Source: Clostridia bacterium
GTDB taxonomy: Bacteria > Bacillota > Clostridia > Oscillospirales > Acutalibacteraceae
Assembly: GCA_017395425.1 (NCBI GenBank)
Contig: JAFPUM010000021.1
Span: 1 to 42,676, forward strand
DNA: 42,676 nucleotides
Direction of reading: 5' to 3'
Under the pieces are notes generated by a model. The model ran no database searches. It was not told the origin of the DNA and saw only the letters and a program-made list of their open reading frames with translations. Of the stretch, positions 1,647 through 36,010 are shown piece by piece. The translations under genes were made by a program, and so were the position numbers. The stretch's first letter is position 1. Each line of letters starts with the position of its first letter.

Positions 1647-2402
1647 TTACTGATACTCTACCACGTTGACCCACTTGAGCAGGAAGTCCCGCTCTTCGGG
1701 CTTGCCCTTGACCGACTGGGACGCCGCCACAATCGGAAGCCACTGCTGCACATACTGACGCGCCGTGTCGCTCTTCTTGCAGTAAAGGCTCATATATCTC
1801 TCCGCCAGTTCCGTCTTGCCCTCGAGCGAGAACAGCAGATAGGTTCTCGCGGCGTCCGCCGCGCCGTTGCCCTGCGTGGCGTGGGACCAGTCCAGCACGA
1901 ATGCCTTGCCCTCGGCGTTGATAATGATATTGCTGGGATTGAAGTCGCCGTGGCAGATTTTGACGTGCTTCTTCATGCCCGCCAGACGCATATCCAGCTC
2001 GTAGCGGGTGGTCGCGTCGAGACCGGTTTCGGAAATCTTCCGTCTCATCTTATCCTGGAGCTTGTTGAGCAGCGGCGCGCGCTTGCTCTGGATTTCCAGC
2101 TGCAAATCCACAAACCGTTCCAGATATTCGTCCAGCTTTTCGGGATGGGCTTCCATCAGCGACGCCAGCGTCTGTCCCTCGATGTAATCGTATACAATCG
2201 CCCATTTGCCGTCGATTTTCGTGACCTGATCCACCTTGGGAATCGGCAGACCGGTTTCTTCCACACGGGCAGTGTTAAGCGCTTCATTGAGAATATCCGC
2301 CTTGGAAAAATCCTCCGCAAACACCTTCACGGTATAATCCCCGCAGCGGTAAATCGTCTTATTCGGACGCTCCGCGATAATTTCCATCTTGTCAAATTCC
2401 AT
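1647..2402 (-). CDS. APH/choline-kinase-like phosphotransferase
   Basis: This 251-residue protein has the aminoglycoside-phosphotransferase (APH) fold signature. The catalytic-loop motif HGDFNPSN is at 151-158 and the metal-binding VLDWSHA at 169-175. The N-terminal lobe has a plausible nucleotide-binding Lys in YTVKVF (residues 23-28). Family members phosphorylate antibiotics, choline, sugars or other small molecules, and the substrate cannot be read from sequence. An AAGGAGG ribosome site precedes the ATG. It lies 35 bases downstream of adhE on the same strand with no terminator between, so it may be co-transcribed with adhE. A strong terminator follows. Antibiotic resistance should not be assumed: similar kinases are common in clostridial core genomes. 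Confidence 0.85.
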   Translation of the reverse strand: MEFDKMEIIAERPNKTIYRCGDYTVKVFAEDFSKADILNEALNTARVEETGLPIPKVDQVTKIDGKWAIVYDYIEGQTLASLMEAHPEKLDEYLERFVDLQLEIQSKRAPLLNKLQDKMRRKISETGLDATTRYELDMRLAGMKKHVKICHGDFNPSNIIINAEGKAFVLDWSHATQGNGAADAARTYLLFSLEGKTELAERYMSLYCKKSDTARQYVQQWLPIVAASQSVKGKPEERDFLLKWVNVVEYQ

Positions 2403-2437
2403 AAATATGCCTCCTTGCCGGAATATAGGTCAGTTCC

Positions 2438-5035
2438 TTACTCGCCGTAGTAAGCCTTGCGATAAATCTCCTTCATCTCGCTGATGAGCGGATAGCGCGG
2501 ATTGGCGCCGGTGCACTGGTCGTCGAAGGCATATTCGGTCATTTCGTCGAGCGTCGCGAGGAAATCTTCTTCCTTCACGCCGTAATCCGCGATGGTCTTC
2601 CTGATACCGATGGCTTCCTTGAGCGCTTCCAGTTTGGCAATCAGACCTTCGAGCTTCTCGGTGTCGTCCCTGCCCTCAATGCCGAGATACTCGGCAATCT
2701 CCGCGTAACGGCGGAGGGTCTTGGGATGGTCATACTGCGAGAAGGTTCCCATCTTGGTGGGCGCTTCGGCGGCATTGTAGCGCATGACATGGGTCAGCAC
2801 CAGCGCGTTGGCGATACCGTGGGCGATATGATGATAAGCGCCCAGCTTGTGCGCCAGCGAGTGATTGATGCCGAGGAAGGCATTGGCGAATGCCATGCCC
2901 GCGAGCGTGGCGGCGTTTGCCATTTTCTCCCGTGCGGCAGGCTGATGATTGCCGTCCTCATAGCACAGCGGCAGATAGTCGAAAATCATCTTGATGGCTT
3001 GCAATGCCAGACCGTCGGTGTAATCGGTCGCCATGACGGACACATAGGCTTCCAGCGCGTGGCTCATCGCGTCGATGCCGGAGGCGGAGGTCAGTCCCTT
3101 GGGCGCGGTCATCTGCATATCCGCGTCCACAATCGCCATATTGGGCATGAGCTGATAGTCTGCCAGCGGATACTTCACGCCCGCGTCGTCGGTAATGACC
3201 GCGAAGGGCGTCACTTCCGAACCGGTGCCAGCGGAGGTCGGCACGGCGATGAAGTATGCCTTCTCGCCCATCTTGGGGAAGGTGTACACTCTCTTGCGGA
3301 TATCCATGAAGCGCATCGCCATATCCATGAAGTCGGCTTCGGGATGTTCGTACAGCACCCACATGATCTTGCCGGCGTCCATCGCGGAGCCGCCGCCGAC
3401 CGCGATAATGCAGTCCGGCTCAAAGGCGCGCATCTGCTTGACGCCTTCCTGCGCACAGGCAAGCGTCGGGTCGGGCGCGACGTCGAAGAAGGTGGCGTGG
3501 ATAATGCCCATTTCGTTGAGCTTGTCGGTAATGACCTTGGTATAGCCGTTTTTATACAGGAACTGGTCGGTGACAATGAAGACCCGCTTCCTGCCCAGCA
3601 CGTTCTTGATTTCTTCGAGCGCCACGGGCAGACAGCCCTTCTTGATATAGACCTTTTCAGGCGCGCGGAACCACAGCATATTCTCTCTCCTCTCGGCAAC
3701 GGTCTTGATATTGATGAGGTGCCTGACGCCGACGTTTTCCGATACGGAATTGCCGCCCCAGGAGCCGCAGCCCAATGTCAGCGAAGGCGCCAGCTTGAAA
3801 TTGTAGAGGTCGCCGATGCCGCCGTGGGAAGAAGGGGTATTGACCAGCACGCGGCAGGTCTTCATTCTCGCGCTGAACTCGTCAATTTTGGCGGTTTCGG
3901 TGAGCGCGTTGCAATAGAGGGAGGAGGTGTGACCGTAGCCGCCGTCGGCGATGAGCTGTTCCGCCTTGGCGAGCGCGTCGCCAAAGTCCTCCGCGCGGTA
4001 CATGGCAAGCACGGGAGACAGCTTCTCATGGGCGAATTCCTCGGAAATATCCACGCTCTCCACTTCGCCGATCAGAATCTTGGTGCTTTCCGGCACTTCC
4101 ACACCGGCGAGCGCCGCAATCGTCACCGGCTTCTGACCCACAATCTTCGCGTTGAGGGAGCCGTTGATGATCATGGTCTTTCTGACCTTGTCTTTTTCAT
4201 CGTCCTTGAGGAAATAGCAGCCTCTTCTGACAAATTCCTCGCGGACCGCGTCATAAATCTCCTTGTCCACGATGACCGACTGTTCGGACGCGCAGATCAT
4301 GCCGTTGTCAAAGGTCTTGGAATGGATAATGGAATTGACCGCCAGCAGGATATCGGCGGACCTGTCGATGATGGCGGGGGTATTGCCCGCGCCCACGCCG
4401 AGTGCCGGCTTGCCCGAACTGTAAGCCGCCTTGACCATGCCGGGACCGCCGGTTGCCAGAATGATATCGGCTTCCTTCATGACCAGATTGGTCATTTCCA
4501 GCGAAGGAACGTCAATCCAGCCGATGATGCCTTCCGGCGCGCCCGCCGCGACAGCCGCCTCCAGCACGATTTTCGCGGCGGCGATGGTGCTCTTTTTGGC
4601 ACGGGGGTGAGGGCTGATGATGATGCCATTTCTGGTTTTGAGACAGATGAGGGTCTTGAAAATCGCGGTAGAGGTGGGATTGGTCGTGGGAATGACCGCC
4701 GCCACCACGCCGATAGGTTCGGCGATTTTCTTCATGCCATAGACCTTGTCCTCTTCGATGACGCCGCAGGTCTTGGCGTCACGATAGGCATTGTAGATGT
4801 ACTCGGCGGCATAGTTGTTTTTGATGACCTTGTCTTCCACCACGCCCATGCCGGTTTCCTCCACCGCCATTTTAGCCAGCGGCAGCCGCGCCTGATTGGC
4901 GGCAATCGCCGCCGCCAGGAAGATTTTGTCCACCTGCTCTTGCGTGTAGGTCGCAAAGATCCGCTGCGCCTCCCTTACCTGCGCGAGCTTCTTCTCCAGC
5001 GCTTCCACGCCGTCTACGATTTCGTACTCTGCCAT
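2438..5035 (-). CDS. adhE: Bifunctional acetaldehyde-CoA/alcohol dehydrogenase AdhE
   Basis: AdhE reduces acetyl-CoA to acetaldehyde and then ethanol using two NADH, disposing of fermentation electrons. The protein is 865 residues, the usual AdhE length. The N-terminal aldehyde dehydrogenase half carries the catalytic Cys248 in [12 protein letters not shown]. The C-terminal iron-dependent alcohol dehydrogenase half shows [23 protein letters not shown] and the metal-ligand region [18 protein letters not shown]. The start at 5035 (MAEYEIVDG) is preferred over the in-frame ATG at 5089 because GGGAG precedes it and known AdhE proteins begin there. Upstream lie two promoters and a perfect Rex-type operator (5115-5132), which indicates control by the NADH/NAD ratio. 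The APH-like gene follows at 35 bases. Confidence 0.97.
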
Positions 5036-5666: not shown

Positions 5667-6485
5667 TCATCTGTAAATATTCGGCTGAAGCCGGAGGCGG
5701 TCGGCAATCATGGCAATAAACTCGCTGTTGGTGGGCTTGCCTCTGCCGTGATGAATCGTATAGCCGAAATAGGAATTCAGGACGTCAATATCCCCTCTGT
5801 CCCATGCGACTTCAATGGCGTGGCGGATGGCACGTTCCACCCGCGACGGTGTGGTATCGAACCGCTGCGCCACACACGGATACAGCCGCTTGGTGACGGC
5901 ATTCATCATATCGGGATACTGCACCGTGGTCATGATGGCAAAGCGGACATACTGATATCCCTTGATATGCGCCGGAATGCCGATCTGATGAATGATATCG
6001 GTCACAGCCAGTTCATATCTGACAGAAACCGTATCCCTTTGTCCGTCAGCGTGATTCCTGTGATACGGCATATACGGCAGAACATCTTTGCCGCCGTCCG
6101 AAAGAAGCAGATCGCAAAGGAGCCTGGGGCTCCCCGTCTTGTTCATCACCATCGCGGCGCCGGCACTGTAAAGCTGGCGTTCCATGCGAAGGGACGGAAA
6201 CTCGGTGATTACCACAAATCGCGGGACATGGTTTTCCATGCTCCGGCGAATGGCTTCCATCAGCGTCATGGCGTCGCTGCTGCCGATAAACAAATCCAGC
6301 ACCAGTATATCGGGACAGCATCGTTTCACCGCGGAAAGAATGGTTTCACAGTCGTTATGGACTGACATAATCCCCTCCAATCTTTGGGAATCAGGCGCCT
6401 CTCCGTCACGCGCAGACTGCATTTGCATGTTTCTGAGAAGCTTCTGCTTGTTTTCATGGGACATGATTGCTTTTACAGGATTCAT
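5667..6485 (-). CDS. spo0A: Spo0A-family sporulation response regulator with an altered receiver pocket
   Basis: Spo0A is the master transcription regulator of entry into sporulation. The C-terminal DNA-binding domain is textbook, with IIHQIGIPAHIKGYQYVR, TPSRVERAIRHAIEVAW and KPTNSEFIAMIADRLRL. The receiver is divergent. It keeps the phospho-acceptor D64 (ILVLDLF), T94 (VVITEF) and K116 (MVMNKTG). The Mg-binding acidic pair that is D10-D11 in B. subtilis reads H10-E11 here (MSHENK). An insertion of about 8 residues follows. The start at 6485 aligns exactly with B. subtilis Spo0A numbering. The frame extends upstream to 6566, but no start there has a good ribosome site. Two Spo0A-box-like sites lie upstream (6745-6751, 6794-6800). 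It may be the main Spo0A of this lineage or a paralogue. Confidence 0.9.
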   Translation of the reverse strand: MNPVKAIMSHENKQKLLRNMQMQSARDGEAPDSQRLEGIMSVHNDCETILSAVKRCCPDILVLDLFIGSSDAMTLMEAIRRSMENHVPRFVVITEFPSLRMERQLYSAGAAMVMNKTGSPRLLCDLLLSDGGKDVLPYMPYHRNHADGQRDTVSVRYELAVTDIIHQIGIPAHIKGYQYVRFAIMTTVQYPDMMNAVTKRLYPCVAQRFDTTPSRVERAIRHAIEVAWDRGDIDVLNSYFGYTIHHGRGKPTNSEFIAMIADRLRLQPNIYR

Positions 6486-6744
6486 GGATATCGCACTGGC
6501 TTTCATCAAAATTTCCGGAAAAAACCGTTCCGTAATCATATCACAACGTGCGGTTTTTTTCAACATCTTTCGGGGAATTTTTACTGCTCGCTGTGAAATT
6601 TGTCACGATGCACAAATACCTCACTTTGCGGTAAAAAATGGGAACAAAAAAATTTTAGTCAAATTGTATTTTACAGGGAAATGATTCTGTACAGGCTCCG
6701 CAAAAAACCGACGTTTCTATGCCTGTTTCGGAATGTGAAATATG

Positions 6745-6800
6745 TTCGACAAAATTCATGGCGCTTGTGCAGCTATCCAAACAACGCCCAAACTTCGACA
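6745..6800 (-). promoter_or_regulatory. Two Spo0A-box-like sites
   Basis: The core TGTCGAA occurs twice on the minus strand, as TTTTGTCGAA (complement of 6745-6754) and CCTGTCGAA (complement of 6794-6802). They lie 260-315 bases upstream of the Spo0A-like start, in a 400-base gene-free stretch. The core also occurs elsewhere by chance, including inside genes, so only the pairing is suggestive. Confidence 0.35.
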
Positions 6801-6884: not shown

Positions 6885-8363
6885 TTATAGAATAATGCAA
6901 ATCAAGCCGCTGCATCCCTCATTGATAATCCGTTCAATGGTTTCACGCATTTTGTCACGGGCATCCACCGGCATTTTGCTGAGCTTGTTATGCAGCCCCT
7001 CATTGACCAGTTCATGCAGGGATTTTCCGAAGATATTGGACTGCCAGATGGAAGACGGGTCCTCTTCAAATTCCTGCAGCAGATAGCGCACCAAATCCTC
7101 CGACTGCTTTTCCGAACCCACAATGGGCGCGACCTCGGTGGTGATGTCGGTCTTGATGATGTGGAGAGACGGCGCCGATGCGGTCAGCCGCACACCGTAA
7201 CGTCCGCCCTGCTTCATGAGTTCGGGTTCTTCGAGCGTCAGCTCATCCATCGCGGGCATCACGATGCCGTAACCCGTGCGCTCCACCTGATCGAGCGCGT
7301 CACTCAGCTTGTCGTAGCGTTGCTTGACGGCGGCGAGTTCGGTGATGGACTTCATCAGATCGCTCTCGTTGCGGATGGGCAGACCGGTCTTTTCGCCGAT
7401 CACGCGGTAGAAAAGCTCCGGCTGTAAATCCACTCTGACACGGGTCTTGCCGGTGCCAAGGTCGATGGAGGACGTCGCGGCGTCGGCGACATAGCGATTA
7501 TCCGAAAGCGCGGCAACCAATCTGTCAATCTCGCGGATGCGGCGGATATCTTTGGCAGCCTGCCGGATGGTGGCAAAAAGGTCGGATTTGAGCCAGTGGT
7601 CGCGGTCGAGGGAATTGATCCAGCCCGGCATATCAATCGCGACGGAGCGGACGGGAAATTCGTACAGCACCTCCGAGAGAATGTGCTGGATTTCTCCCTC
7701 CGTGATTTCCTGACAGTTGACCGCCATGACCGGCACGCCGTAACGGACGGTCAGCCGCTCCGCGAGGCTCTGGCTGTCCGCCGCGGACGGGTCGGCGCAG
7801 TTGAGCAGCACGGCAAAGGGCTTGTTGATTTCCTTGAGCTCATGGATGACGCGTTCCTCGGCTTCTTCGTACTCCGCGCGGGGGATATCGCTGATACTGC
7901 CGTCGGTCGTCACCACCAGTCCGATCGTGGAATGCTCGGTAATGACCTTGCGGGTGCCGATTTCCGCCGCCAGATTGAAGGGAATCTCCTCTTCAAACCA
8001 CGGGGTCTTGACCATGCGCGGCGCGTTGTCCTCGATATAGCCCAAAGAGGACGGCACGATGTAGCCCACACAGTCAATCATACGCACGCGGAAGGAGGCG
8101 TTTTCATCGAGATCAATCTCAATCGCCTCTTCGGGAATGAATTTCGGCTCGGTGGTCATGATGGTGCGTCCCGCCGCCGACTGGGGCATTTCATCCGTCG
8201 CGCGCTCCACCTTGTATTTGCTGCTCATATTGGGCAGCACGAGGGTCTGCATAAACTGCTTGATAAAGGTGGATTTGCCGGTGCGCACCGGACCGATCAC
8301 ACCGATATAGATATCACCGCCGGTACGCTCGGCGATATCCCGGTAAATTTTGATATCTTCCAT
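6885..8363 (-). CDS. spoIVA: Stage IV sporulation protein A (SpoIVA), spore-coat ATPase
   Basis: SpoIVA is a cytoskeletal ATPase of the mother cell. It polymerises on the outer forespore membrane and forms the base layer of the spore coat. The 492-residue length is typical. The P-loop GPVRTGKST is near residues 24-32, followed by FIKQFMQTLVLPNM. The switch-like region is RMIDCVGYIVPSSLGY, and the conserved C-terminus ends in ICIIL. A GGGAGGAG ribosome site precedes the ATG. It starts 15 bases after the sipL-like gene, so the two form an operon. It is anchored by SpoVM, whose gene is also in this window at 29142. Expression under sigma-E is expected from the family. Confidence 0.97.
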   Translation of the reverse strand: MEDIKIYRDIAERTGGDIYIGVIGPVRTGKSTFIKQFMQTLVLPNMSSKYKVERATDEMPQSAAGRTIMTTEPKFIPEEAIEIDLDENASFRVRMIDCVGYIVPSSLGYIEDNAPRMVKTPWFEEEIPFNLAAEIGTRKVITEHSTIGLVVTTDGSISDIPRAEYEEAEERVIHELKEINKPFAVLLNCADPSAADSQSLAERLTVRYGVPVMAVNCQEITEGEIQHILSEVLYEFPVRSVAIDMPGWINSLDRDHWLKSDLFATIRQAAKDIRRIREIDRLVAALSDNRYVADAATSSIDLGTGKTRVRVDLQPELFYRVIGEKTGLPIRNESDLMKSITELAAVKQRYDKLSDALDQVERTGYGIVMPAMDELTLEEPELMKQGGRYGVRLTASAPSLHIIKTDITTEVAPIVGSEKQSEDLVRYLLQEFEEDPSSIWQSNIFGKSLHELVNEGLHNKLSKMPVDARDKMRETIERIINEGCSGLICIIL

Positions 8364-8378: not shown

Positions 8379-9914
8379 TTATGCCGTAACGATCAGCAGC
8401 CTGCTGTCGGTGACACAGTCGCCGTCGATGTCATTTTCCGCGCGAATCGCTTCCACAGAGGAATTGTATTCCCGCGCAATGTCCCACAGTTCCTCGCCGC
8501 TCCCGGCAAAATACAGCACGGCGGCGGGACGGCTCTCTTCGGACTTCGGACGGGTTTCGTCCAGTTCCACGCTCTCCACCAGCTTCATGGGGATATCCTC
8601 GTACAGCGACGAATGCACGCAAAGCTCCGCCTGAAGCTCCACCCTGTTGTCTCCGGTGAGGGTGCAGACGCAGGATTTCACCGTCACGCGGCATTCGGGA
8701 CGCAGCATCTGTCCCTGTGCCGGCTGCGCGACCGCGCAGTCAAAGCGCACGTTTTTCTCGGTGTACACCACCCCCTGACGGGGGTCTCTCACAATCATGC
8801 ACACCGCCAGATTGCCCGTGGTGACGGTTTTGCCGTCCCGCCAGACGCTGCGGCTGTCCGACACGCTGCACCAGACGTCGCAGAGGCTCTCGATTTTCAC
8901 ATCGCCCGTATCCACCGTCTGCTTGCACATCACCGTATCGTACACGGTACTGCACAGCCGTTCCGGTTTAAGCTGCCTGCGCCTGCAATTGGTTTCATAC
9001 GCCACCGAATACGCGTCGGTGATCCACTCGATCTGCCTGGGACGGTAGGCGCGGATATCCGCCATGGCGCGCAGATCCACATCCAGCCGACGGTATTCCC
9101 CGTCCGCGTCGGTGCGAAGCGACACGTCAACCGATTCGCACGCCATTTTCAGATCAATCAGGCAGTTCTCATCCACACCCGACACATCAAAAAACTGATG
9201 AAACGGAATGACATATTCCATATGCTCCGGATCGTCGCCCTGTTCGGTCACATACACCATGGTAAAAATCGCGTCGCCCTTGACGATCAGCTTGTTGGCA
9301 ACCGCCTTGCATTCCTCCATGCAAATCGCGGTACCGGTGCGCAGAATGGAGGAAACCGGCGGCTTGCCCTCGCCCAGCTCCATCGCCTCGCTGATTTCAA
9401 AGCCGCACTGGGTGCAGCACACCAGATCGCTGATCTCACACCGGCACTTGCGCAGACGAAGTCCCTCGCCTTCCGCGTCGGTGATCAGCTCCATCATTTT
9501 AGCGGAAACAGCGGTCATATGCAGGGTGAAAGCGCCGTGGATATCCAGCTTGCGCTGGCTGACGGCACGGCAGTTGACATAATCGACGTGAATATCCACC
9601 AGCAGTCTGACATTGTCGGCGGTATTGTCAAAGGGCAGCGACGCCTTGAAGGGATAGAGACGGTCGCAGCATCGGATTTTTTTATCCCGGTCGTCCAGAT
9701 ACATGACGGAAACGCGCGCGCTGCCCTCCACGGTGAGCGCGTCGCTGCTGACCTCGCGGGAAGTAATCATCGGCTCGAGACGGCATTTGAGCAGCCTGCC
9801 GATATCGGGGCAATAGTCCGGCAGCGTAAAATCGACGTCCACCGCCTGCTCGCAGTTGCCTTCCAATAACACTTCCTTGGCGAATACGGATTCACCGGTC
9901 GCTTTACATTCCAT
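8379..9914 (-). CDS. sipL: SipL-like SPOCS (DUF3794) and LysM domain protein
   Basis: SipL is the clostridial partner of SpoIVA that tethers the coat to the forespore, the counterpart of SpoVID in Bacillus. The 511-residue protein has DUF3794/SPOCS-type repeats (FTLPDYCPDIGRLLKCRLEP near the N-terminus, and similar sequence around residues 170-300). A C-terminal LysM-like segment follows (ELWDIAREYNSSVEAIRAEN), which in SipL is needed to bind SpoIVA. The start at 9914 is preferred over 9971 because AAAGGAGAG stands just before it. The spoIVA gene follows at 15 bases, which supports the assignment. A candidate sigma-E-like promoter lies at 9970-10000. Confidence 0.9.
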   Translation of the reverse strand: MECKATGESVFAKEVLLEGNCEQAVDVDFTLPDYCPDIGRLLKCRLEPMITSREVSSDALTVEGSARVSVMYLDDRDKKIRCCDRLYPFKASLPFDNTADNVRLLVDIHVDYVNCRAVSQRKLDIHGAFTLHMTAVSAKMMELITDAEGEGLRLRKCRCEISDLVCCTQCGFEISEAMELGEGKPPVSSILRTGTAICMEECKAVANKLIVKGDAIFTMVYVTEQGDDPEHMEYVIPFHQFFDVSGVDENCLIDLKMACESVDVSLRTDADGEYRRLDVDLRAMADIRAYRPRQIEWITDAYSVAYETNCRRRQLKPERLCSTVYDTVMCKQTVDTGDVKIESLCDVWCSVSDSRSVWRDGKTVTTGNLAVCMIVRDPRQGVVYTEKNVRFDCAVAQPAQGQMLRPECRVTVKSCVCTLTGDNRVELQAELCVHSSLYEDIPMKLVESVELDETRPKSEESRPAAVLYFAGSGEELWDIAREYNSSVEAIRAENDIDGDCVTDSRLLIVTA

Positions 9915-9969
9915 GAGCTTCTCTCCTTTGGGGGAAGTACCTTTTGGTGCTTCGGTTGGTTTCTGTTGC

Positions 9970-10000
9970 ATTCATATGCAGACCATGTCCCGGTTATGCC
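9970..10000 (-). promoter_or_regulatory. Candidate sigma-E-like promoter of the sipL-spoIVA operon
   Basis: On the minus strand GGCATAA (9994-10000), 15 bases, then CATATGAAT (9970-9978) resembles the mother-cell sigma-E consensus (GKMATAT, about 14 bases, CATACAMT) with several -10 mismatches. The position, about 55 bases upstream of the sipL-like ATG, is suitable. Confidence 0.35.
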
Positions 10001-30349: not shown

Positions 30350-30373
30350 CAAACATAAGACAGGTGAATGAAT

Positions 30374-31051
30374 ATGTACCGTATCCTGCTGGTGGAAGAC
30401 GACCCCGATATCCGGGAACTGATCGTGCAGTATTTTACCAAAAAAGAAAAAGACGCCTTTCGGGTGGACATCGCGGTCAACGGTCCGCGCGGACTGGAAA
30501 AAGCTGCCGAGAATCCCTATGACCTCCTGCTGCTGGACGTGATGCTCCCCGAACTCGACGGCTTCGCCATCTGCCGGGAAATCCGCCGCAGCAGTGACAT
30601 ACCCATTCTGTTCATCACTGCCCGCGCCGACGAATCGGACATCCTGCACGGCTACGCGCTGGGCTGCGACGATTATGTGGTCAAGCCCTTCCCGCTGCCG
30701 GTGCTGTATCAGAAGGTCGGCGCGCTCATCAAACGCGCCAAAGGGTTGGTGCGGTTTCCGACGCTCCACGCCGGAAGCCTCTCGCTCAATCCCAACAACG
30801 GCACCGTCATCAGCGACGACAGGGAAGTGACCCTCACCGCCAAGGAATACGGCATTCTGCGGGTACTGCTCGAAAACAAGGGCAGCATCATCAGCCGCGA
30901 ACAGCTGCTCAACCGGGTATGGGGCTACAACCACACCACCGACGAGCGCGTGCTGGACACCCATATCCGCAACCTGCGGAAAGCCCTGGGAACCGACGGC
31001 AAAATTATCAAAACCGCCATCGGGCGCGGTTACACCATCGAGGACTGCTGA
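30374..31051 (+). CDS. OmpR-family response regulator
   Basis: The 225-residue protein has a receiver domain with acidic pair EDD (LLVEDDPDI), phospho-acceptor Asp in LLLLDVMLPELDG, Thr in FITARAD and Lys in YVVKPFPLP. A winged-helix domain follows (LTAKEYGILRVLLENKG, then REQLLNRVWGY and VDTHIRNLRKAL-like sequence). CAGGTGA is best spaced for the ATG at 30374; an ATG two codons earlier (30368) is possible. The cognate kinase starts 3 bases after its stop. The stimulus cannot be told from sequence. Confidence 0.93.
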   Translation: MYRILLVEDDPDIRELIVQYFTKKEKDAFRVDIAVNGPRGLEKAAENPYDLLLLDVMLPELDGFAICREIRRSSDIPILFITARADESDILHGYALGCDDYVVKPFPLPVLYQKVGALIKRAKGLVRFPTLHAGSLSLNPNNGTVISDDREVTLTAKEYGILRVLLENKGSIISREQLLNRVWGYNHTTDERVLDTHIRNLRKALGTDGKIIKTAIGRGYTIEDC

Positions 31052-31053
31052 AT

Positions 31054-32739
31054 ATGGAACATCGATTCAAAACACAGCGCAACCGTCTCTTTCTGCGGAT
31101 CACACTCATCCTGCTTGCCGTATGGCTGCCGGTATCCGCCATCTATTGTGTCATACAGCTACATAACGAAAAAATCAATATACAGCGTCAGATGCTCTCC
31201 AACGCGTCCTATGCCAAACAGTCGCTTTCGATGGGAATGCTCCATGAAAACAGCGGCAATCAGGTCTATATTTCCAACGGCAACCTGCTGGAATTCAAGG
31301 ACATGATTGAAAAGGACTATGACAGCCAGATGATTGTCATCGACACGGACAGCGGACAGGTTCTCGCCGACACCGCCGACCGTGTCCGGGTGGTGTACTC
31401 CTTCCGGACGGACAAAGGCACCTACCCTGACGATTACGGATTTCTCGATTTCCATGTTCTCCGCGACGGGCTCACCGACGCGCAATATCGGAAAATCGCA
31501 CAATGGCTCCGCACTGACCCCGGAGACGGCTCGTCCTATGCGCTCATTTGCAGTCAATTCTACGCCGTTGCCGATCAGATTTTCCCGCTTACGGTCTCGG
31601 TCATACGCACCGAAAGCGAAAGCGACCGGTTCCGGGAGGACGCTGTCGTGGAAGATTTTCCTACCGGTCTCACCGCTCCCGCCGGTTCGGTGATCTTCCG
31701 CAACGGAGAGAACAGGCTGAATCGGATTCCCACCGACTTTCTTCTGGACGGTATCCGCAACCGGGACTGTATTCACCGGCTCACCGACAGCCAGCGGGAG
31801 AAAAACATCACTATGATTCCTGTCGGAACAGCCCAATACATTGTCTATATCTCGGACTACATCTTTCTCAACGCATTTACCTTCAACGACGAAAAAGGCT
31901 ATTACGAAAAACACGACCAACTCTATCTGATGCAGTATGCCCGGCAGGTCAATCTGCTCCAAAGCAGCGCTGTCACACTGGCAGTTGGCATGGCGGTGAT
32001 ATCCGGCATTTTCCTTCTCACCGGCACGGTTCTCTTCCTCATGATCTGGCACACCACCGGCACGCAGATACGGCAGGAACAGCGCCGCCGCGACCTCACC
32101 AACGCTCTGGCGCACGACATCAAAACCCCCCTCTTCATCATCAGCGGCTATGCGTACAGCCTCAAAGAGGACATCGACAGCGGCGAACGCGACCGCTATC
32201 TCGATAAAATCATCGAGCAGACCGACCGTATCAACGCGCTGGTGCATAATATGCTCAATCTCAGCAAGCTGGATTCCGATCAGATGACCCTCACCCGCAC
32301 GACCTTTGATCTGTGGGAACTGACGGAGGAGCTTCTCGCGGACTATCAGAAACTGCCCGAAGGCAAAACCATTCTGACCGCCCACAGCGGCGACAGCATG
32401 ATATCAGCCGACAGGACGCTCATTCGCACCGCGCTGCAAAATCTCATTGACAACGCCGTGCAATACGCGCTGCCGGGCAGTGACATCCGCATCGACGTCA
32501 CGGAGAAAACCTTCCGCATTGCCAATCTCTGCCAGCCGCTTACCAAAGCCCGGCAAAAAGCCATCTGGCAGCCCTATTACCGCATTGACCCGAGCCGTCA
32601 TCACAAGGGCAACGGACTAGGGCTGTCCATTGTCAAAGCCATATTCGACCTGCACGGCGTCAGATATGAACTGAACGTCCAAGACCCCGCGATGTTTGAT
32701 TTATCCGTCGAATGGAAAGATGACACAGACCTTCATTGA
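31054..32739 (+). CDS. Membrane sensor histidine kinase
   Basis: The 561-residue protein has an N-terminal span (FLRITLILLAVWLPVSAIYCV), an extracytoplasmic sensor region of about 270 residues and a second span (LAVGMAVISGIFLLTGTVLFLMI written in part). The kinase has the phospho-acceptor His in LAHDIKTPLFIISGY, the N box LQNLIDNAVQYAL and the G box GNGLGLSIVKAI. The sensor region matches no domain I recognise. The longer open frame to 30919 lies inside the regulator gene and is rejected. A decayed hydrolase remnant follows at 33 bases. Confidence 0.92.
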   Translation: MEHRFKTQRNRLFLRITLILLAVWLPVSAIYCVIQLHNEKINIQRQMLSNASYAKQSLSMGMLHENSGNQVYISNGNLLEFKDMIEKDYDSQMIVIDTDSGQVLADTADRVRVVYSFRTDKGTYPDDYGFLDFHVLRDGLTDAQYRKIAQWLRTDPGDGSSYALICSQFYAVADQIFPLTVSVIRTESESDRFREDAVVEDFPTGLTAPAGSVIFRNGENRLNRIPTDFLLDGIRNRDCIHRLTDSQREKNITMIPVGTAQYIVYISDYIFLNAFTFNDEKGYYEKHDQLYLMQYARQVNLLQSSAVTLAVGMAVISGIFLLTGTVLFLMIWHTTGTQIRQEQRRRDLTNALAHDIKTPLFIISGYAYSLKEDIDSGERDRYLDKIIEQTDRINALVHNMLNLSKLDSDQMTLTRTTFDLWELTEELLADYQKLPEGKTILTAHSGDSMISADRTLIRTALQNLIDNAVQYALPGSDIRIDVTEKTFRIANLCQPLTKARQKAIWQPYYRIDPSRHHKGNGLGLSIVKAIFDLHGVRYELNVQDPAMFDLSVEWKDDTDLH

Positions 32740-32922: not shown

Positions 32923-34626
32923 GTGGCGGATTTCAGTCTGATGTGGCCTTCCGACTGCCCACGGAATTTCAAAGAACTGGGAGAGGATTGCTGCAACGAT
33001 CTCTCGCTGGAGTTCCTCTGCGCCAGCCTTTCCCCCAAGGAGTACGACCGCAATGTCATCGCCGCTATGCTGCGGCAAATGCCTGCCGAACCGCAGGTCG
33101 TGCAGTACCGCGTGGATGTGTTTGATGATATCCTGCGTCATCCGGCGCTCCGGCAGAATATGGCAGCGCTGCTCGATCAGCTCGAATTTCTCAAAAGTCT
33201 GCACAAGCACGCCCGCGACTGTGAGGCAACGAGTATCTGGCAGATCATCAACCGCCTGAACGAACTCGATTCCTACATCGACTGTGTGACCGGCATCAAA
33301 CAGATTCTCGAAAGCAATGAAATCCATTCCGAAGGTCTCAAAGCCCTGCTGGGGCTGGTGCGGCATATCTACTCGGACAGCGGATTCCCGGCGCTCAAAG
33401 AGGACATCAAACGGGTGGTCAGCGAAACCGGTCAGATCAAAAGCGTCACGCTGGGCGTGAATCTCAACCGGACGCTCGCACCGGTGGAAGTCGGCGTGGT
33501 GTCCATCAACAACGCGCCCTATACCCGCGCGGGCGTGCTGTCCCATTTCTACGAATTCGCCGCGTCCAAAGACGGTCTTCACGACGGCACCGACGTCACT
33601 TCCATGAAATACCACGTTCCCAATACAAGCACCGGCATCATCGGTGTTCCCAGGCAGTCAGGGACTCGGGGCGCGCTGACCGGTCTTGCCAAGGTCTACA
33701 CTCTCAGCGACGCCGAAACCAACCCCCTCATGAACAATCTCAACGCCGTCATCACCGATATGCTCAAACCAGTGGTGCGCAAGCTCAACGACGTACTTGC
33801 CAAATATGTGGATGTGAGCGGCTATTCCCTGATCTCGCTCATACCGGAACTCACCTTCTACCTGCGCTGGGCGGAGCTGACCGAACAGATGATGGCTGCC
33901 GGCATTCCCATGTGCAAGCCGGAGGTACTCGCGGCGGAACGCAGGGAATTCTATGCCGACGGACTTTATAATCTCAAACTGGGTCTGAAAAAACTCAAAG
34001 GCGAGGAACTGGACATCGTCCCCAACACCGTGGACTTCCGTGCCGAGCGCCGCATTTACATCATGACCGGTCCCAACCGCGGCGGCAAGACCACCTTCAC
34101 CCAAGCCATCGGGCTGATCTTCCTGCTGGCGCAGCACGGACTGTATGTCCCCGCCACGCGCTGTATGCTCTCCCCCGCCGACTGCATCTACACCCATTTT
34201 CCCGCCGACGAAAACCGCACGGTCGATCTCGGACGGCTGGGCGAGGAATCCCGCCGCATCAGCGATATCTTCTCCGAAGCCACCGACCGGAGCCTGCTGC
34301 TCTTCAATGAATCGCTCGCCACCACCAATTTTGAAGAAGGACTTTACATCGCCAAGGACGTGGTCAAAGCACTGCATCTGCTCGGCGCACGCACCATCTT
34401 CAATACCCATATGCACGATCTGGCGATGAATCTGGACGAACTCAACCGTTCCATGCCGGGCGACAGCGCGGTTGCCAGTCTGATCACGGGCATTGACAAC
34501 GGACAGCGCTCTTATAAGGTATCGCTGGCGCCGCCCTGCGGTCAGAGTTATGCCCGCGATATCGCGAAGCAGTACGGCGTGACTTATGCACAGCTCAAAG
34601 CACGGGTGGAACACAACCGCCAATAA
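32923..34626 (+). CDS. MutS-like ATPase lacking the mismatch-recognition domain
   Basis: The 567-residue protein has a helical lever/clamp-like region and a C-terminal MutS-type ABC ATPase. Walker A is GPNRGGKTTF near residues 384-393. The Walker B region is LLLFNESLATT, where canonical MutS has an Asp-Glu; as I recall, Asn-Glu is usual in this MutS-like subgroup. NTHMHDLAMNL is the His-switch segment. The mismatch-binding domain of MutS (Phe-x-Glu) is absent, so classical mismatch repair is unlikely. The start is a GTG (32923) with AAAAGGAG before it. It lies between the remnant and the intact hydrolase; the cellular role is unknown. Confidence 0.85.
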   Translation: MADFSLMWPSDCPRNFKELGEDCCNDLSLEFLCASLSPKEYDRNVIAAMLRQMPAEPQVVQYRVDVFDDILRHPALRQNMAALLDQLEFLKSLHKHARDCEATSIWQIINRLNELDSYIDCVTGIKQILESNEIHSEGLKALLGLVRHIYSDSGFPALKEDIKRVVSETGQIKSVTLGVNLNRTLAPVEVGVVSINNAPYTRAGVLSHFYEFAASKDGLHDGTDVTSMKYHVPNTSTGIIGVPRQSGTRGALTGLAKVYTLSDAETNPLMNNLNAVITDMLKPVVRKLNDVLAKYVDVSGYSLISLIPELTFYLRWAELTEQMMAAGIPMCKPEVLAAERREFYADGLYNLKLGLKKLKGEELDIVPNTVDFRAERRIYIMTGPNRGGKTTFTQAIGLIFLLAQHGLYVPATRCMLSPADCIYTHFPADENRTVDLGRLGEESRRISDIFSEATDRSLLLFNESLATTNFEEGLYIAKDVVKALHLLGARTIFNTHMHDLAMNLDELNRSMPGDSAVASLITGIDNGQRSYKVSLAPPCGQSYARDIAKQYGVTYAQLKARVEHNRQ

Positions 34627-34645
34627 TAACAAAAAGCGCCAATTA

Positions 34646-34774
34646 GCCGCGCAGCGGCGGGGATTCCAAAGGGACGAGTCCCTTTGGCAGGGGGGTGGGG
34701 GCAGCGCCACCACTGGGGCGTGGGGCAAAGCCCCACGAGGCAGCACAACGTGCTGCCGGGCAAAACCAGCCCGG
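34646..34774. repeat. Cluster of consecutive GC-rich hairpins
   Basis: Within 130 bases there are at least five short hairpins in a row: GCCGC/GCGGC (34646-34658), CCAAAGGGA/TCCCTTTGG (34666-34687), CGTGGGGC/GCCCCACG (34719-34737), GGCAGCAC/GTGCTGCC (34739-34757) and CCGGG/CCCGG (34756-34774). A weaker one (GGTGG/CCACC) lies between. The tract fills the gap between the MutS-like gene and the hydrolase and looks like a REP/BIME-type extragenic repeat. The frame reading through it from 34586 is not a gene. Confidence 0.6.
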
Positions 34775-34882
34775 ACAACCAACCGGGAAAGGCAAATTCA
34801 GAAAACAAACCCACCAAAATCAGCCAGCCCGGAACCAAAAACGGTTCTATCCTATAAAAAAACATCCAAGGAGGCACCCCAC

Positions 34883-36010
34883 ATGAAACCCAACCACGAG
34901 CCCATTACCACACCTGAAACCATTCCACCCGTCAGCGACAAACCATCCAAAACAAAACGAAACACGCTCAAAATCATCCTCAGCACACTCGGCGTTGTCC
35001 TGCTCGCCATTGCCATCACCGCCGCGGTACTGCTCTACGGTCCCCTGATCACTATCGGCACGCTAAAGGAAGTGGACACCGATCTGTACCGCATCCACTA
35101 CCGGCAGGATTATCACCTCGACAAAGCCCTGTCCTCCAATATCTCGACCGAACAGGAATTTCTCGATTTTATCTCCAAAAACTTCTTCTTCGGCTATCCC
35201 ATCGAAGGAAATCAGGATTATATCGCGTGCAGTGCCTTTCTGACGCAGAACGCGGACGGCGGATATCTGACGGGGCGCAACTTTGACTATTCCGAAACCG
35301 ATCTGCTCGCGGTCTATACCACTCCGCGTGACGGCTACGCCTCCATCGCCATGGCGCCGCTCGCCGCGCTGAACATCGATTTTTCCCAAGGCATTGAAAA
35401 TGCCGACACGGTTGACAAGCTGGCGACGCTGGCTGCGCCTTATATGTGCGCCGACGGCATGAATGAAAAGGGGCTGACGGTATCCGCCCTTGACCTCACG
35501 CCTGTCAAAATCCGGCAGAATACCGGCAAACCCAAGCTGCCCACCATGCTTGCGATCCGTCTGCTGCTCGACCGCGCCGCCACTGTGGATGAAGCCGTGG
35601 CACTGCTGCGTCAATATGACTTCTACTCCATCTCCCAATACGCCCAGCACCTTTTCATCTCGGACGCACAGGGCAACGCCGTGGTGGTCGAATGGGCAAT
35701 GAACAACGTATTAGGCGAAACGTCGCGCGGTTTTGAAATGCAGGTAATCGAATCGCCGGTATGCACCAATTTCTGGATGTCGCAGGTGCCGGAATTCAAG
35801 GGTCAGTGCAAACGCTTTGACACCATCACCCAGCGTCTGACCGATCAGCCGATCAATACGCAGGAGGACACCATGAGCCATCTCGAAGCGGCAAGCGTCG
35901 GCTGGACCGAATGGTCATGCGTCTATCATATGTCGGATTTCTCGGTGGACGTTTCCCTCGATACCCAGTACGACAAGGTCTGTCACCTCTCCCCCGACGA
36001 TTTCCGCTGA
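34883..36010 (+). CDS. Linear amide C-N hydrolase (choloylglycine hydrolase/Ntn-hydrolase family)
   Basis: The 375-residue protein has a charged N-terminus, one membrane span (residues about 33-55, LKIILSTLGVVLLAIAITAA), and an Ntn-hydrolase domain. The likely nucleophile is Cys116 in IACSAFLTQN, followed by GYLTGRNFDY, the binding-site Arg/Asp pattern of the family. N115-C116 autocleavage is not obvious, so processing before Cys116 would be needed if it works like other Ntn enzymes. The catalytic domain is probably outside the membrane. Candidate substrates include bile-salt amides, penicillin-like amides or acylated amino acids; none can be chosen from sequence. CCAAGGAGG precedes the ATG. 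A decayed paralogue lies at 32757-32898. Confidence 0.82.
   Translation: MKPNHEPITTPETIPPVSDKPSKTKRNTLKIILSTLGVVLLAIAITAAVLLYGPLITIGTLKEVDTDLYRIHYRQDYHLDKALSSNISTEQEFLDFISKNFFFGYPIEGNQDYIACSAFLTQNADGGYLTGRNFDYSETDLLAVYTTPRDGYASIAMAPLAALNIDFSQGIENADTVDKLATLAAPYMCADGMNEKGLTVSALDLTPVKIRQNTGKPKLPTMLAIRLLLDRAATVDEAVALLRQYDFYSISQYAQHLFISDAQGNAVVVEWAMNNVLGETSRGFEMQVIESPVCTNFWMSQVPEFKGQCKRFDTITQRLTDQPINTQEDTMSHLEAASVGWTEWSCVYHMSDFSVDVSLDTQYDKVCHLSPDDFR

Follow-up and report, generated by a model that had tools for sequence, protein, structure and literature searches.

Spo0A is described as the regulator through which all endospore formers start sporulation, being activated at a conserved Asp, and the Ruminococcaceae are placed among the families lacking a phosphorelay, in PMC11210211. 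A class of aspartate-less receivers, including RitR and ChxR, is described in PMC4395418, along with the idea that a Lys in RitR replaces Mg2+. No published report of a Spo0A devoid of the acidic pair was found in the literature searched, most subscription journals lying outside its coverage. The Spo0A considered here is encoded in a window (the whole stretch of DNA analysed) of 42,676 nucleotides. Like the Spo0As of Bacillus and Clostridia grouped under TIGR02875, it displays the usual domain order, length and DNA-binding domain (DBD), with sporulation genes present; unlike them, its genus has lost D10/D11 and the aromatic switch residue, mostly the Thr/Ser, and often the Lys of the phosphorylation pocket. 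It resembles RitR, ChxR and the other aspartate-less receivers of PMC4395418 in having a receiver fold without a canonical pocket, and the Lys found in RitR at the second acidic position recurs in 9 of the 17 orthologues of the genus. The usual pattern is nevertheless reversed, in that it is the acceptor Asp that survives in this genus and the metal-binding residues that are lost; roughly two thirds of the aspartate-less receivers still have the first acid, whereas it is missing from 17 of 17 orthologues here. As aspartate-less receivers are defined by replacement of the acceptor Asp, the window protein, in which D64 is present, falls outside that class.

The spo0A gene (5667..6485, minus strand) encodes 272 residues, and its translated open reading frame begins MNPVKAIMSHENKQ. 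The product scores 206.1 bits against the curated NCBIfam Spo0A model TIGR02875 (cut-off 200), with an alignment that starts only at residue 39; in a genome-wide search with the same model it scored 205.3 bits, and the cut-off was passed in only 6 of 18 genomes of the genus. The Spo0A_C domain (PF08769; 5694..6005, minus strand) is recovered at full length with 153.5 bits, is 56-58% identical to 1lq1 and has an intact recognition helix, the recognition segment reading TPSRVERAIRHAIEVAW versus TASRVERAIRHAIEVAW in B. subtilis; the near-canonical DBD claimed in the original prediction is thus borne out. A search of the genome of origin (a draft of 2.36 Mb in 62 contigs, 98.7% complete) returned this protein (7.6e-46) and one divergent Spo0A_C protein on contig C58 (4.0e-19), and no second canonical Spo0A was found there. 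With the curated model matched, the Spo0A_C domain and its recognition helix in place and sporulation genes in the genome, we take 5667-6485 to encode the true Spo0A, and hence the sporulation regulator, of its genus; what it lacks is the full residue set of a phosphorylatable receiver (two acids, Asp, Thr/Ser and Lys), with H10/E11 at the positions of the two acids.

Residues 1-128 (6102..6485, minus strand) constitute what we term a pseudo-receiver domain. The Pfam receiver model (Response_reg) reaches 22.2 bits, below its cut-off of 30.2, and aligns from residue 43. An AlphaFold2 model (mean pLDDT 78.6, pTM 0.49) shows a receiver fold, with strands at 6-9, 39-42, 60-64, 89-94 and 110-115, and helices a1 to a5 at 10-27, 46-56, 72-82, 99-107 and 120-128; Foldseek ranks Spo0A DBD structures first and also recovers 1qmp, the receiver of Spo0A (19% identity; TM 0.72, normalized to the target length). 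The five-strand receiver fold is accordingly predicted, on this model, to be kept. At the end of strand 1, the window protein reads MSHEN and B. subtilis Spo0A VADDN. This register, which was already assumed in the original prediction, can be regarded as fixed because N12-K13 is invariant across the genus and matches the IADDNK of other Clostridia; among the 49 rows sampled outside the order but within the class, 27 have NK. A longer in-frame start exists at 6566, and conservation in the genus starts near 6485. The 62-contig state of the draft might invite the suspicion of a sequencing or assembly error, a wrong start or a wrong register, but this was rejected since orthologues in 17 genomes show the same change; with the register held by N12-K13 and residue 10 placed by the predicted fold just after strand 1, we consider such an artefact to be negligibly probable; of these errors, a sequencing error had been named at the outset as what could overturn the prediction.

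In the window protein, the replacement of the metal-binding D10-D11 by H10 (6456-6458) and E11 (6453-6455; together 6453..6458, these and the following codons being on the minus strand) is read directly in the sequence. The acceptor Asp is retained as D64 (6294..6296; B. subtilis D56), as seen in the translation and in the genus alignment, the switch Thr position is T94 (6204..6206), and the pocket Lys position is K116 (6138..6140). The earlier description had overlooked that the aromatic switch residue is replaced by V113 (6147..6149), that no Pro follows the pocket Lys, and that Thr and Lys are unconserved in the genus. The alignment of relatives proposed with it reveals a genus-wide loss that is larger than first described. 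Of 18 genomes of the genus that were searched, 17 yielded a Spo0A with a canonical DBD, the exception being G006, which is 76% complete. Among these 17 orthologues, D10 is absent throughout (H in 13, Q in 2, R and Y in one each), position 11 is occupied by K (9), E (4), A (2), N (1) or D (1), and neither position is acidic in 12. The acceptor Asp persists in 16, with E in the remaining one, the switch position is Thr/Ser in only 4 and Cys in 13, V or I takes the aromatic position in all 17 (aromatic residues, 0/17), and the pocket Lys is retained in 6 and lost in 11. Hence, the statement that the Asp, Thr and Lys are kept is correct for the window protein but, as regards the Thr and Lys, does not extend to the genus, and none of the 17 has all five pocket residues (D, D, D, S/T, K). 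Within the pseudo-receiver, N12, K13, R100, R103, Y106 and G109 are invariant. The genus thus has no conserved His-Glu pocket, His-Glu (4/17) being one local form of a wider loss. The notion of MSHxNK as a wholly new motif was dropped, as N12-K13 is common in other Clostridia; the part that is new is M8, S9 and H10.

Next to the switch position, at E95 of the window protein (position 87; 6201..6203), a new acid is found in 16 of 17 orthologues (E in 14, D in 2); the five commonest residues there in the rest of the family are S, G, N, T and A. Another acidic pair filling the pocket, which had been named as telling against the original prediction, is not seen in the alignment at positions 10-11, but this acid could serve an altered pocket or, alternatively, bind a basic neighbor. 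Together with the preceding Cys (13/17), it gives rise to the pattern xxCEF, which might conceivably reflect an altered pocket or a switch based on the thiol. These features bear on the possibility that a phospho-switch persists, in which D64 would be phosphorylated with another metal or with none, helped by the His, the Glu or the position-87 acid. In keeping with it are the acceptor Asp and the new acid, each in 16 of 17, and the presence of T94, K116 and E11 in the window protein, so that weak phosphorylation of this one protein is possible. However, 12 of 17 orthologues have no acid at positions 10 and 11, the aromatic residue is lost in 17, Thr has given way to Cys in 13 and Lys is lost in 11, and we judge a persisting phospho-switch to be distinctly unlikely. 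The original prediction had offered altered metal dependence or control in another way. The first half is weakened because Glu11 is local (4/17) and because the loss extends to the Thr, to the aromatic residue and, in many orthologues, to the Lys; the second half is better supported, and a pseudo-receiver seems more likely than a phospho-switch using an altered metal.

Examined across the class, this genus appears to be the extreme of a gradient in pocket loss. In samples picked by search rank and by hand rather than at random, all five residues are intact in 47 of 62 Spo0As drawn from the remaining orders of the class (the 30 top-scoring ones all have them, as do 17 of 32 deeper ones), in 10 of 51 belonging to further families of the order and in 20 of 127 belonging to further genera of the family, most of these genera contributing just one or two genomes. 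In GTDB terms, the family is probably Acutalibacteraceae. Rows without HIKG[YFH] and SRVER had been excluded (L150, L158, L164 and 13 class rows); restoring the class rows gives 47/62 instead of 41/49, and L164, which looks intact, would make the order count 11/52. L159, with no receiver in its frame, was scored as not intact, 21 of 150 family genomes gave no match at E <= 1e-30 and are absent from the family counts, row L006 is the window gene again, and L019_1 is a chance frame. Among named records, the pocket is intact in 18 of the best 80 of 592 candidates. Partly eroded pockets likewise occur in the Spo0As of Anaerotruncus sp. G3 (L199; E10-G11, pocket Lys replaced by Met) and Clostridium sporosphaeroides DSM 1294 (L200; N10-D11, pocket Lys replaced by Ile), the latter being an organism that makes spores. 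Elsewhere in the family, 24 of 126 rows have a non-acidic residue at position 10, and 116 of 127 retain the aromatic switch residue; unlike other genera of the family and order, every orthologue read from the window genus lacks both the acid at position 10 and the aromatic residue. The 17 genus orthologues form a single clade with full support (100) in a FastTree analysis, and in a FastTree tree of 244 rows built without the pocket columns, the state of the pocket (intact or not) changes at least 22 times.

Such recurrent change raises the possibility of drift, i.e., that the start of sporulation is no longer tightly controlled in this genus and that the pocket is simply decaying, a fate shared with many other lineages within the order. 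Median omega values, taken with one cut for all groups from pairs that overlap and are hence not independent, are 0.20 for the receiver and 0.044 for the DBD in 11 genus pairs, 0.20 and 0.062 in 41 eroded-pocket pairs from outside the genus, 0.09 and 0.073 in 18 intact-pocket pairs, and 0.38 and 0.12 in 8 mixed pairs. The receiver omega of the genus is therefore twice that of intact pairs and equal to that of other eroded pairs, as drift would have it. Against drift, it still stays near 0.2, and the six invariant residues lie within the receiver. In the eight closest of 14 genus pairs, omega is 0.14-0.37 for the receiver and 0.03-0.07 for the DBD; in the 5 of these 8 for which a linker value is defined (0.38-0.71), the receiver does not exceed the linker. 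The six more distant genus pairs have receiver values of 0.17-0.65. The receiver of the genus is thus still under purifying selection, looser than that on a working receiver yet not free, and we consider drift a rather unlikely account. That the receiver omega of the genus does not fall below that of the remaining lineages with eroded pockets also counts against the pseudo-receiver explanation preferred below.

The gene neighborhood indicates that the change is peculiar to spo0A. Its upstream neighbor is spoIVA (6885..8363, minus strand; TIGR02836, 743 bits), followed by sipL (8379..9971, minus strand; PF12673, 104 bits), and the order sipL-spoIVA-spo0A-adhE is kept in 4 of 4 relatives read; between the window and these relatives, spoIVA is 87-93% and adhE 91.5-95% identical by tblastn, but spo0A only 45-58%. 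Two of the three sporulation genes assigned to the window in the original prediction, spoIVA and sipL, were recovered; the third, spoVM, was not picked up by a crude pattern scan but may still be present. Scans of the window for Rfam families and for tRNAs yielded nothing. A location next to spoIVB, which is frequent but not essential for spo0A, is not seen here: the gene follows spoIVA in the window, whereas it follows spoIVB in all three of the further family genera scanned (5 were fetched), and the spoIVB of the window genome is on another contig than spo0A, with no Spo0A-like sequence found within 1.5 kb of it. In all 18 genomes of the genus, we found two matches to SigF/SigG-type sigma factors, all below the curated cut-off, and a SpoIIE match, near full length in 16 and in every case below the curated cut-off; SpoIVB exceeds its cut-off in 17 of 18. 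A Spo0E-like protein was found in 0 of 18, which we do not use as evidence because named controls were the only intact-pocket lineages searched. Elsewhere in the window, a C45 acyltransferase or choloylglycine hydrolase-like region (34586-36010, plus strand) scores 77 bits, below the family cut-off of 85. An ordinary PhoB-type regulator, with a pocket that is intact by eye and with a histidine kinase gene after it (30368-32739, plus strand), served as a receiver control.

A search for a second Spo0A with an intact DD pair, which had been suggested as a check, returned no second canonical Spo0A, but the divergent paralogue on C58 does have the pair. This protein (40539-41315 of C58; 260 residues) combines a receiver with DD, D, T and K and a divergent Spo0A_C domain of 67 bits, and it is on a different contig from spo0A, which is on C13. 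At E <= 1e-30, 17 of 18 genomes of the genus carry it, compared with 3 of 148 from the rest of the family at E <= 1e-35 (the raw family count of 5/150 includes two that belong to the genus); none was found in G014, which is 94% complete and in which the pseudo-receiver Spo0A is present. The pocket is intact in all 17 genus copies (DD in 15 and DE in 2, with the Asp, Thr and Lys), 5 of these 17 having been judged by eye. The paralogue adjoins, in each of the 11 contexts inspected, one or two related kinase-like proteins of ~490-560 residues, with a hydrophobic front half and, in one of the two types, an IHKDNK-like box (both by eye); when six of them were scanned with HATPase_c, four scored above its cut-off and two below. 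In region L381 of C58, for instance, the intact-receiver Spo0A-like regulator (3540-4322) lies beside a GHKL kinase-like gene (1924-3408), and several relatives have two GHKL kinase-like genes by the paralogue, one type being without the His of the box. A likeness between the MSHKNK of Spo0A and the IHKDNK box of these neighbors was set aside, as H10 is not invariant. The paralogue and the kinase-like genes look like a dedicated two-component system, and we hypothesize a tie between it and Spo0A.

One form of such a tie, which overlaps with the explanation that we prefer, is a division of labor in which the intact-receiver paralogue takes the phosphate and acts via the Spo0A DBD, either as a heterodimer or by driving spo0A. 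The near-restriction of the paralogue to the genus (17/18 versus 3/148), its intact pocket in 17 of 17 copies and its kinase-like neighbors in 11 of 11 contexts would all fit this. However, spo0A and the paralogue are on different contigs, the link is hypothetical, G014 is without a copy, the divergent DBD of the paralogue may bind DNA by itself, and the three carriers outside the genus keep an acidic pair, EE, in Spo0A (L042, L083 and L142); a division of labor is hence possible, if somewhat doubtful. A third, degenerate member of the Spo0A family occurs in 11 of the 18 genomes (L020-L030), none being found in the window genome; it has two acids at 10-11 in one of the 11, and its acceptor Asp is replaced by Asn/Ser in 8. 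In G002, this degenerate paralogue lies directly after spoIVB (2443-3279 of region L420, contig C39, reversed orientation), where the three other family genera scanned have spo0A; of the other ten, nine are on a different contig from spoIVB and one is 25 kb away from it. It may be a relic of the ancestral spo0A gene. One could imagine in this setting a split switch, comprising an unphosphorylatable promoter binder and a controlling paralogue that carries the signal with its own kinases, the older copy having become degenerate in part of the genus, but we hold this to be only a tentative and fairly improbable scheme.

Upstream of spo0A are two copies of TGTCGAA (6745..6751 and 6794..6800, minus strand; 266 and 315 bases from the start), which we take to be the core of possible Spo0A-binding boxes. 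Across the genus, there are 10 in 5.95 kb upstream of spo0A versus 20 in 55.7 kb elsewhere, although only 8 of 17 spo0A genes have an upstream copy, these being common to close relatives; the whole window has 4 against 6.8 expected by chance. The heptamer thus appears to be enriched only upstream of spo0A and not window-wide.

We propose, as the probable though by no means assured explanation, a pseudo-receiver Spo0A that acts without canonical phosphorylation. The receiver is predicted to have kept its fold, whereas the Mg2+-binding pair, the aromatic switch and mostly the Thr/Ser, often also the Lys, have disappeared, and in view of these pocket losses, the protein most likely binds its boxes without canonical Mg2+-dependent phosphorylation of the Asp. 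The retained Asp probably forms a salt bridge with a basic neighbor (H10, K11 or the invariant K13), which would substitute for the metal along the lines proposed for the Lys in RitR. Activity would then most likely be set by the amount of Spo0A, through autoregulation via the upstream boxes, and also by partners at the conserved a4 face (R100, R103 and Y106). The lost phospho-input may have moved to the genus-typical intact-pocket paralogue beside the GHKL kinase-like genes. A supporting contrast comes from other receivers that remain intact, namely, the PhoB-like regulator of the window (by eye) and the copies of the paralogue. Two features sit less well with a pseudo-receiver: an acceptor Asp kept in 16 of 17 would be needless in a fully dead receiver, and the acid at position 87 (16/17) could join an altered pocket.

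The loss of the pocket, alongside a retained DBD and sporulation genes, suggests that sporulation in this genus would be started in another way. With a phosphorylation site largely lost from the one canonical Spo0A found, the genus makes the general rule of Spo0A activation directly testable, and it offers a natural candidate for a phosphorylation-independent Spo0A within an order in which the site is widely eroded. Speculatively, this might also be relevant to the triggering of sporulation among Clostridia of the gut.
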